From: an archaeon
GTDB taxonomy: Archaea > Hydrothermarchaeota > Hydrothermarchaeia > JALTZZ01 > JALUTC01
Direction: 5' to 3'
DNA: 21,339 bases
Assembly: GCA_027051265.1 (NCBI GenBank)
Contig: JALTZH010000050.1
Span: 1-21,339, forward strand
The notes beneath the pieces were generated by a model that saw only the letters and a list, made by a program, of their open reading frames with translations, made no database searches and was not told the DNA's origin. Within the stretch, counting starts at the first letter, position 1; every line of letters starts with the position of its first letter. Shown piece after piece: positions 6,933-21,296 of the stretch. The translations under genes were made by a program, and so were the position numbers.

Positions 6933-6969
6933 AAAATAAATTATATTAAGTTAACTGTTAATCATTTCT

Positions 6970-8125
6970 GACCTCCTCCCCGTGCTAAATGGCAAGGGTT
7001 TCTTGCAGGGAAGTTTGTGTCTCCAAGAGCTTCTCAACCCTAAAAAGCACAGCTTAGCAAAGAACCCCATTAAATCCTCCTTCTTCAGCTCGTCTAAGTC
7101 TGCTCCTTGCGGAACTAGACTTAGGAGATTTAATTGAGACGAGAGCTATATTTAGCGTAGAGCGTAGCTACAACATCTCTATGTGCTTTTACACCGCAGT
7201 TAAGACATTTAAACAACCTATACTTTTTTAATGAACTTAGCTTATTGCAACGAAGGGCAACGAGAGAAGGTATTATATTCATTTACGGATTCAACTTCTA
7301 GGCCGAAATTTTCGGACGTGATTTTAATTTTTTGGATGATGTATCTATAGCTGAGGAAGTTGTGGATGAGAGCGTTTAACCTTATTGCTTTTATTTTTGT
7401 TTTTTCTTAAGCCTTTGGGGGTTGCCAACAAAAATTATTGTAACACTTTTCTTTAAGCAAAGCTTTATGAACCTATGCACGACAGTATTAACGTAATACT
7501 TAAACCTTTTTTATCTTATCCTATAAAACTTTCTAAGCCTTTTAGAGCTGTACCTATCATTAATTTTTTTAAGAATGCTTTGATATCAAGCAATTTTTTT
7601 ATTCCAATACTACCAATCAGATAGAAGAGGTTTGCCGCTGAAAGCTATGGCTTGTTTCTTGCTTTCGATCTAAGCGGTTATTAAGCAGATAGCACCGATA
7701 TCGACGAAAGCTTTTTTATAACCTTTTACTTCAGGCTTTTAAGCTTAAAGAAATTACGCTCATGCGAAATCATTTTTTTCTTATTATTTACTTTGCAACT
7801 ATTGAACTTAAAATTTTCTTGAACTAGTTGTATAGATCTTTAATACAATTCTCCTTATATAGTTTAACTTATTCTATAGAAGAATCGTAAACATCTCACA
7901 GATTTTGAAAAGCCGTTTCTCCTGTTGTTTTGTTGGATGAAGCTTGAATACGTTGATTCTTTTCAATGTTTTATGCATTTGCTTCTCTGCTTTTTGCATA
8001 TTAATTATTTATAATTCACTATATAAATGTTTAACCTAAAATTTTAATGCTTTCAGATCATTCATATTATTACTGAATTTTTATATCTCCCTGTGAGCTA
8101 AAGCTTCATCTTTTAAGATGGAAAA
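6970..8125 (-). mobile_element. Decayed IS200/IS605-type insertion element
   Basis: An element about 1.15 kb long, read on the minus strand. The tnpB-side end lies at about 6975-7010: an imperfect hairpin CCGTGCTAAATGGCAAGG followed by GTTTCTTGCAGGG. The probable opposite end is at about 8091-8120: CCCTGTGAGCTAAAG, then the palindrome CATCTTTTAAGATG. Between them sits the broken tnpB (7130-7999). Between the tnpB stop and the tnpB-side end, an 8-bp perfect stem CTAAGTCT/AGACTTAG (7094-7122) closes a loop containing CTCCTTGCGGAACT. This is the region where TnpB guide (omega) RNA is normally encoded. No tnpA remains. Exact ends are estimates. Confidence 0.7.
7130..7999 (-). pseudogene. tnpB: Broken tnpB (RNA-guided nuclease of IS200/IS605-type element)
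   Basis: Conceptual translation of the minus strand from the ATG at 7999 gives KTLKRINVFKLHPT, the usual TnpB N-terminus. It continues, through several in-frame stops and at least one frameshift, to a RuvC-like segment AFVDIGAI near 7700, the helical arginine-rich segment ILKKINDRYSSKRLRKFYRI near 7560-7600, IIFVGNPQRLKKK near 7430, ENFGLEVESVNEYNT near 7300, and the C-terminal zinc ribbon YRLFKCLNCGVKAHRDVVAT near 7160-7225, ending SSRLN then TAA at 7130-7132. The upstream CxxC of the ribbon is disrupted (RCPS). Several stops replace expected tryptophans (TGG to TAG). N-terminal and zinc-ribbon parts share one frame, but the segment near 7376 is shifted. At 290 codons it is shorter than a typical TnpB (about 370-400), so there are internal deletions. 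It cannot encode an active nuclease. Confidence 0.85.
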
Positions 8126-20334: not shown

Positions 20335-20655
20335 TTAAACCAATTGGATACCAATTAGTGCAGATAATAGGATAGTGAGGATCGTCGAGGTAGTAATAAT
20401 AAGCTTTCTCATATCGTCTAATCTTTTATCGATGTAATTTCTCATGTCGTCCAATCTTTTATCAATGTAATGAATGATTCTTGTTTCAAGGTCTTTCAAA
20501 TCGTTTTTCGTGGCGACGTTTGGTATAACGGATTTTAGGATTAATTCTTGTAGAGGTTTTTGCTTCGCCACCTTTATCGCAAACCCTCTTAGAAAATCCT
20601 CATCCTCTAATAATGCATCTCTTATTCTTGATATATCTATCCCCATATTCTCCAT
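20335..20655 (-). CDS. Small coiled-coil protein with C-terminal membrane anchor
   Basis: A 106-residue protein. Residues 1-45 form a charged helical N-terminus (DALLEDEDFLRGFAIKVA), followed by ATKNDLKDLE. A coiled coil then contains the ten-residue unit YIDKRLDDMR twice in tandem (about residues 63-72 and 74-83), separated by one residue. A single C-terminal hydrophobic helix (about 85-105, IITTSTILTILLSALIGIQL) anchors it, with the bulk in the cytosol. Similar ATKxDL-coil-anchor proteins are common in thermophilic archaea with no known function. The duplication is visible in DNA as two near-identical 30-base units near 20410-20475. No adjacent same-strand gene suggests a partner. A simple repeat expansion within a real gene is the best reading. 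Confidence 0.65.
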   Translation of the reverse strand: MENMGIDISRIRDALLEDEDFLRGFAIKVAKQKPLQELILKSVIPNVATKNDLKDLETRIIHYIDKRLDDMRNYIDKRLDDMRKLIITTSTILTILLSALIGIQLV

Positions 20656-20714: not shown

Positions 20715-20800
20715 AGATAAACGGGGAAGGAGAGGGAGAAGGAAGAGAAATCTTTCTGGAAGAGTTTAAAAGAGGAGGGAGGAAGGAGAGGAGGGGGTTA
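20715..20800 (+). other. Purine-rich tract
   Basis: Nearly all bases on the plus strand from about 20722 to 20798 are A or G, interrupted by short pyrimidine segments near 20751-20769. On the minus strand it is a C/T-rich tract following the structured RNA candidate and could act as its 3' tail or a pyrimidine-rich terminator. Such tracts can also form triplex DNA. Confidence 0.4.
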
Positions 20801-21016
20801 CGGGTTCAGGACTGGTGGAAATTTATGGAAATTTGAGGAGCTTCCACCAGTCCTTTGGGCGTTATTGATCTCAGCTTCCCCTTTCATTGGGGAGCAAGTC
20901 ATCGATCTCCACCCCGATCCGGGCAACCCCGCCCAGAGCCTGTGATGCACCTTCCACCGAGAGATCATTTTATTGATCACTACACGGTAGAAGGTGCTTG
21001 GGGGCTCTGGGGAAAT
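20800..21016 (-). ncRNA. Candidate structured non-coding RNA, class unknown
   Basis: This block is far richer in G and C than the rest of the window, a known marker of structural RNA in AT-rich archaea. In plus-strand coordinates, four nested or consecutive stems are exact or nearly so: GGACTGGTGGAA/TTCCACCAGTCC (20809-20820 with 20842-20853); GGGCG/CGCCC (20857-20861 with 20930-20934) enclosing GCTTCCCC/GGGGAGC (20874-20881 with 20889-20895); AGAGCC/GGCTCT (20935-20940 with 21003-21008) enclosing GCACCTTC/GAAGGTGC (20947-20954 with 20990-20997), extended by inner GATC pairings. The minus strand is favoured because a BRE/TATA-like CAAATTATAAAC lies at 21031-21042, about 25 bases before the first stem. 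I looked for RNase P and SRP RNA signatures and found no convincing set. Predicted length is about 220 bases. Confidence 0.55.
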
Positions 21017-21030
21017 CCCTTCATTTATGT

Positions 21031-21042: not shown

Positions 21043-21223
21043 GCATAAATCCCCCTATCAATTAAATATCTCTCAAATTCTCTTAATATCTCATCATTTA
21101 AATATTTCTTTAAATAAATATTTTTATGTATTTTATCCGATAATATTCCATAAACGTTATAATAAGTGGTTTCTTTTAAATTTTTATTTTGAAATATATT
21201 ATCAAAATTAAAATAAAAAGATG

Positions 21224-21296
21224 TGGACCCGCCGGGATTTGAACCCGGGACATTGGCTTGCGAGGCCAACGTCATTCCAGGCTAGACCACGGGCCC
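21224..21296 (-). tRNA. tRNA-Ala (anticodon CGC)
   Basis: A 73-base tRNA read on the minus strand. The acceptor stem GGGCCCG pairs with CGGGTCC and includes the G3-U70 wobble that identifies alanine tRNAs; the discriminator is A. The anticodon stem TTGGC/GCCAA encloses the loop CTCGCAA, giving anticodon CGC, which reads GCG codons. The T arm is CCGGG-TTCAAAT-CCCGG. CCA is not encoded and there is no intron in the anticodon loop. A run of T follows on the transcribed strand (21212-21219), consistent with termination. A TATA-like AATATAAATTTT lies at about 21328-21339 upstream. Confidence 0.96.

Follow-up and report, generated by a model that had tools for sequence, protein, structure and literature searches.

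A GC-rich block at positions 20802-21011 of the window (the whole 21,339-nt stretch of DNA analysed here) was identified, with a probability of about 0.93, as the 3' terminus of a tnpB gene of the IS200/IS605 type together with its omega RNA (reRNA/sotRNA) and the right end of the element, located on the minus strand and lacking the protein gene. TnpB omega RNA is an already known kind of transposon RNA; the form present in the block is covered by no Rfam family. The copy in the window is most likely a decayed and inert solo relic with an intact-looking scaffold, because its left end is gone, as is almost the whole of tnpB, and the genome contains neither a close TnpB nor a Y1 transposase.

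Composition and folding of the block

The sequence and coordinates given in the earlier note were correct, and the GC-rich, strongly folded block that it described proved to be real. The GC content of the block was 0.525 (53%) versus a window mean of 0.299 (30%; sd 0.050). In the whole window, only the 217-base stretches starting at positions 20720-20807, all of which overlap the block, reached this value. The minus strand folded with a z-score of -6.3 and the plus strand with one of -4.9; none of the 200 shuffles was as low in either case. The perfect stems reported previously were all found, namely 12 bp (20842-20853/20809-20820), 8 bp (20990-20997/20947-20954) and 6 bp (AGAGCC/GGCTCT, within 21003-21011/20932-20940). 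The proposed closure of a nested domain by GGGCG/CGCCC was discarded as a conserved pairing because the homologues do not keep it; the comparative evidence pairs CGCC (20858-20861) with GGTG (20910-20913). Likewise, the TATA-like element TTATAAA (21039-21033, minus strand) was not accepted as evidence of a promoter, because such an element is expected by chance: TTWWWWA occurs 10 times per kb on the minus strand, which gives about 0.8 occurrences in 78 bases. The plus-strand octamer GGAGCAAG, said to recall RNase P, is merely the complement of the H4 hairpin arm.

Rfam searches, one of the checks suggested at the outset, returned nothing for the block at the gathering score and no match for its homologues. 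At E values up to 10, only implausible plant microRNA-like chance matches to the hairpins of the block appeared. RNase P RNA and SRP RNA, the signatures of which had already been judged not convincingly present, gave no match even at this level and were rejected as identities.

A long purine-rich tract (GGGGAAGGAGAGGGAGAAGG...) extends over 20722-20800 of the plus strand, directly beyond the right end, and raises the local GC content; on the minus strand it reads as a run of pyrimidines and would constitute the guide and the sequence downstream of it. The block is adjoined by a small ORF (20335-20655, minus strand, 106 aa) containing two IDKRLDDMR repeats and a C-terminal hydrophobic helix. 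The nearby tRNA-Ala gene (21223-21296) gives the location of the block no visible meaning.

Relatives of the block at tnpB 3' ends

A DNA search (blastn) with the block across genomes matched three genomes, its own included. The other two belonged to unrelated archaea, and both revealed tnpB; homologues are mostly too divergent at the DNA level for blastn. The match at locus L027 fell within the 3' part of a 418-aa ORF (reading ...TKTCPRCGGRMKRLEGQVLECDRCRLRINRQLNGAINLYLRMWGFPPSPSTFHRVV...), the protein product of which carries Pfam OrfB_IS605 and Cas12f1-like_TNB and matches the TnpB structures 8bf8 and 8h1j. The earlier statement that no frame across the block looks protein-like therefore held only in part. 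The minus-strand frame reads GISPEPPSTFYRVVINKMISRWKVHH..., a remnant of the tail of an L027-type TnpB, and positions 20858-21010 match residues 363-413 of the L027 protein at 35% identity (tblastn, E 3.8e-5), making the block partly protein-derived. About 50 codons of the C-terminal tail are left in the window, and the rest of the gene is absent.

A contig scan with the C-terminal part of the L027 TnpB as the query gave further relatives, among others in Archaeoglobaceae (L078), Thermoproteota (L079), Geoarchaeota (L081), Desulfurococcales (L082), Bathyarchaeota (L083) and Terraquivivens (L084). In distant archaea, intact tnpB genes end in the same block with the same orientation (L027, L028, L078, L079 and L082). 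Among the matches of the covariance model R1 (described below), 29 were inspected, all from other genomes (L095-L101, L103-L124); a full or partial tnpB in the same orientation lay immediately upstream of, or overlapped, 27 of them, the exceptions being L117 and L124. The sense overlap with the tnpB 3' end that characterises omega RNAs was thus observed on the same strand in the relatives, and the window has retained the tnpB tail. A cognate TnpB was present in the relatives and was found neither in the element nor in the draft genome, which makes the window copy an orphan, not another kind of RNA.

Scaffold architecture

All relatives that were read shared a layout downstream of the zinc ribbon. 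GGGGUU and CCC-GA(A/U)-GG come first, then stem H2, which is short, stem H3 and NAUGA. These are followed by the GC hairpin H4, UGA, the return strands and AA, and the layout ends with the long hairpin H5 and GAACCCC, beyond which similarity is lost. Exactly this layout is seen at 20802-20934 on the minus strand of the window (Table 1). It includes two further hallmarks of omega RNAs, the pseudoknot of the 5' loop with the guide-adjacent motif and the right-end hairpin. The letters of H5 are wholly different between species. Stems equivalent to the 5' hairpin H0 were recognised by eye, with different letters, in L027, L028, L079 and L084, and H0 overlaps tnpB codons in the homologues. An additional candidate hairpin, which spans the zinc-finger codons (CCUGCCCCC...GGGGGCAGG) and lies upstream of H0, was observed in L002 (contig C232), L003, L027 and L147, and is kept even in copies that have lost the reading frame.

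Table 1. Features of the tnpB-derived block and their positions in the window
Feature	Position	Strand	Basis
Omega RNA (reRNA) scaffold core including right-end hairpin and guide-adjacent motif	20802..20934	-	R1 model, 90 bits, E 7e-23 (the window sequence is one of the nine R1 seeds); 29/30 conserved pairs retained
5' hairpin H0: CCCAGAGCC (21003-21011)/GGCTCTGGG (20932-20940), inner GCACCTTC/GAAGGTGC	20932..21011	-	Folding, coordinates
Pseudoknot 5' strand GGGGUU	20925..20930	-	Pairs with AACCC at 20802-20806; comparative test
Pseudoknot 3' strand AACCC, directly before the guide (transposon-encoded motif)	20802..20806	-	Alignments
Stem H2, 5' strand GGUG	20910..20913	-	Covariation with CGCC 20858-20861
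Stem H2, 3' strand CGCC	20858..20861	-	Covariation
Arm H3 (GAUC/GAUC) with kink-turn-like loop and hairpin H4 (20889-20895/20874-20881)	20867..20907	-	Covariation
Kink-turn-like internal loop GAUGA/UGA, within the H3/H4 arm	20899..20903/20871..20873	-	Aligned letters
Right-end hairpin H5, perfect 12 bp	20809..20853	-	Double changes at all 12 pairs in 27 sequences
Would-be guide position, flank just beyond the right end	20782..20801	-	Inferred from homologues and the C232 empty site
Remaining codons (about 50) of the C-terminal tail of tnpB	20858..21010	-	tblastn, L027 TnpB residues 363-413
5' truncation point, where similarity to other copies stops (approximate)	21012..21024	-	Alignment of copies

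Between H3 and H4, the letters NAUGA/UGA, which are those of a box C/D-type kink-turn (GA/GA), occurred in 17 of the 20 aligned sequences having the arm; seven aligned sequences had no arm. A canonical kink-turn consists of a C-helix, a three-base bulge, tandem GA/GA pairs and an NC-helix. Here a bulge of 2-3 nt precedes the NC helix, and the NAUGA/UGA letters are also codons in the intact relatives, so that a box C/D-like kink-turn in the scaffold, parallel to those of the Pyrococcus abyssi RNAs sRkB and sRkC, is a prediction. The H4/kink-turn arm was missing or unaligned in L111, L114 and L118-L121, and may be an optional module of the scaffold. None of the papers searched dealt with TnpB together with L7Ae and kink-turns.

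Covariation of the scaffold pairs

Conservation alone cannot prove RNA function in this case, because the conserved letters overlap codons in the intact relatives; covariation can. A hand alignment of 12 sequences with trimmed variable loops (A2) was used because MAFFT alone misaligned the terminal hairpin, and it was then checked with model matches from other genomes. With the pseudoknot included, 94.2% of the cells in A2 were paired and changes on both sides were seen in 17 of the 30 pairs. The covariation value was 0.629; shuffled alignments gave 0.235 (0/500 as high), and sliding the partner strand gave no more than 0.128. The hand alignment leans towards the structure, as do the model alignments, and the slid controls were far lower despite this.

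The covariance model R1, built from nine of the 12 A2 sequences, detected the RNA in 31 of the 247 archaeal genomes searched (17 of 179 genera). In an alignment of 27 R1 matches, two of which correspond to seeds (the window, and L098, whose tnpB equals that of L079), 89.7% of the cells were paired, double changes affected 23 of the 27 pairs, and covariation reached 0.568 versus 0.175 after shuffling (0.491 versus 0.168 with the pseudoknot added). A compensated pseudoknot, GGGGUC/GACCCC, was found in L103. Homologues with compensatory changes, which the earlier note had proposed to look for, thus exist. Compensatory changes were seen in each of the stems. The covarying pairs include H2, H3 and the pseudoknot, which lie inside the scaffold, and G-U pairs are used on the minus-strand reading.

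Copies of the element in the same genome

The genome containing the window is a draft assembly of 1.46 Mb in 257 contigs (95% complete). The block gave seven matches on six contigs and is therefore a dispersed repeat; R1 gave six matches, and the number of RNA copies was estimated at about 4-6. The other copies retain 24-28 of the 30 conserved pairs and are decaying. Copies on contigs C232, C139 and C99 have a further upstream stretch in common, which represents the left end and is followed almost directly by the omega RNA, tnpB being nearly gone. The C99 copy was damaged by a further insertion, and the miniature copies on C232 and C139 retain the whole omega RNA scaffold. The left end shared by these three copies is missing from the window copy.

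The 401-bp miniature copy on C232 interrupts a different tnpB gene. At other places in the genome, homologous tnpB copies carry the corresponding empty site, TTTAAATGTC|TTAACT, without interruption, which defines exact ends without target duplication and places the right end of this copy at the boundary between scaffold and guide. Insertion without target duplication is the behaviour of IS200/IS605 elements. No Y1 transposase was found in the draft genome, and no TnpB close to this subfamily, the nearest one being about 30% identical over most of its length. The element family now looks immobile in this genome because both are lacking, and a cognate TnpB could be absent from the assembly while present in the organism, because the genome is a draft.

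At the syntenic site of two related genomes (G001 and G002), the flanking small gene was conserved and the next stretch was unrelated, which shows the absence of the block and not the exact junction. Same-genus and same-order genomes lacked the block at the site and gave no R1 match at threshold (the same-genus genome is 81% complete). Elsewhere in the window, TnpB zinc-ribbon fragments at 7163-7349 (minus strand) mark a second, decayed tnpB remnant. A weak match to HgcC (6957-7060, minus strand, E 0.73) is located downstream of it, and the two together span 6957-7349.

Proposed mode of action and alternative readings

By analogy with the studied relatives, the block RNA would be transcribed, bound by TnpB and used as a guide. 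In intact relatives, tnpB mRNA would be processed into an omega RNA with a scaffold of approximately 120-130 nt, comprising the GGGGUU loop, stem H2, the H3/H4 arm with its kink-turn-like loop and the right-end hairpin H5. The scaffold would be followed by AACCCC, paired with GGGGUU in the pseudoknot, and then by a guide read from the flanking DNA. Together with the omega RNA, TnpB would act as a nuclease on DNA that matches the guide, cut the empty donor site and so keep the element there. In the window, the left end of the element has disappeared along with almost the whole of tnpB; the scaffold and guide position remain. The scaffold is almost undamaged, and a purely dead relic need not be so, which counts against the relic interpretation.

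Alternatively, the orphan omega RNA may still be transcribed and loaded in trans onto a TnpB encoded elsewhere in the genome, which we consider unlikely. The nearly complete set of scaffold pairs, the 105-108 bits scored by orphan copies in an unrelated archaeon (G196), as high as a scaffold beside a full tnpB, and the transcription of P. abyssi sRkB and sRkC, which are related to the OrfB 3' end (PMC3124441), all fit such a live guide. The lack of a cognate TnpB in the genome, the lack of a usable promoter signal at the block and the decay of the other copies speak against it. The wider proposal of a broad archaeal omega RNA with an L7Ae-binding kink-turn, the tnpB-less miniature copies of which would be standalone guides for one TnpB in trans, is equally doubtful. 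The G196 miniature copies (L148, L149 and L150) lack tnpB, have intact scaffolds and share an upstream GTTAAATATT motif, which could be a left end or a promoter.

It is unlikely that the palindromes matter only as DNA, i.e., as single-strand transposition ends from which no RNA is made. In IS200/IS605 elements the transposase acts on right-end hairpins, and most of the gene is missing from the window copy, both of which suit this explanation; the covariation of H2, H3 and the pseudoknot, which lie apart from the terminal hairpin, with G-U pairs on the minus strand, argues against it. It may nevertheless be true of this single dead copy. Co-option by the host as a kink-turn RNA acting via L7Ae, e.g., in the regulation of a neighbour independently of TnpB, appears quite improbable: the kink-turn-like loop is conserved and L7Ae is bound in vitro by orphan RNAs that P. 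abyssi derives from transposase genes (PMC3124441), but the site is not conserved in the same-genus and same-order genomes. The earlier interpretation as a minus-strand structured RNA without a curated Rfam match stands. A wholly new class, or a housekeeping RNA (RNase P or SRP RNA) that has diverged, would be compatible with the empty Rfam result at the gathering score but is refuted by the association with tnpB; several copies per genome, absence from most relatives, location at tnpB 3' ends and no RNase P or SRP match even at the permissive E value all speak against it.

Comparison with known systems

In the TnpB omega RNA of ISDra2, the scaffold measures 116 nt, forms stems 1-4 and pairs -5..-3 with -103..-105 in a pseudoknot; cleavage requires neither the TnpB C-terminal tail nor the RNA 5' of -117 (PMC10097598). 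Cutting by ISDra2 TnpB, directed by the guide just past the right end, favours transposon retention at the donor site (PMC8612924). The block resembles this RNA in the sense overlap with the tnpB 3' end, the pseudoknot between the 5' loop and the guide-adjacent motif, the right-end hairpin, the stem arm in the middle and the guide derived from flanking DNA (PMC8612924, PMC10097598). It differs in having no recognisable sequence match, a longer GC-rich pseudoknot (GGGGUU/AACCCC) and a box C/D-like kink-turn loop in the arm, and in being an orphan copy. Haloarchaeal omega RNAs likewise have a pseudoknot of a hairpin loop with a transposon-encoded motif and a right-end hairpin; the sotRNAs among them (RF02656/RF02657) are sense transcripts over the tnpB 3' end, as proposed for the block (PMC12558985), but these models have no match in the window.

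Similar RNAs are P. abyssi sRkB, sRkC and sRk52, GC-rich orphan RNAs of a hyperthermophile with dispersed copies, kink-turns and a relationship to the 3' end of IS605/IS607-type OrfB genes, a likeness drawn from their description; sRkB and sRkC, related to the IS605-type OrfB 3' end, bind L7Ae through kink-turns (PMC3124441). The P. abyssi RNAs were shown to be transcribed and L7Ae-bound, whereas the RNA of the block is predicted from its sequence. Haloquadratum PATEs and terminal-only IS605 derivatives (PMC3119063) are also short, have lost the transposase gene and make no target duplication; unlike the PATEs, the miniature copies on C232 and C139 have kept the omega RNA scaffold complete.

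HgcC (RF00062) of Thermococcus kodakarensis is another archaeal RNA that was found by its high GC content and is sense-transcribed within transposase genes (PMC4247193). RF00062 does not match the block, which was not among its 20 matches in the own genome at E up to 10. In this genome, HgcC matches are often found directly after the zinc-ribbon end of a tnpB gene (e.g., C138:6386-6477, C32:5255-5346, C21:5168-5259 and C79:7543-7629), which suggests that HgcC, too, is a family of TnpB omega RNAs; none of the papers searched links HgcC to TnpB.

The analysis assigns a striking orphan structured RNA to the TnpB omega RNAs and yields a model, backed by covariation, for which Rfam has no equivalent. 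Two questions follow from the predicted kink-turn and the copies reduced to a scaffold: whether L7Ae takes part in TnpB complexes of archaea, and whether scaffolds without tnpB can still act as guides. One explanation would account for three separately named archaeal RNAs, HgcC, sotRNA and the sRkB-type kink-turn RNAs.
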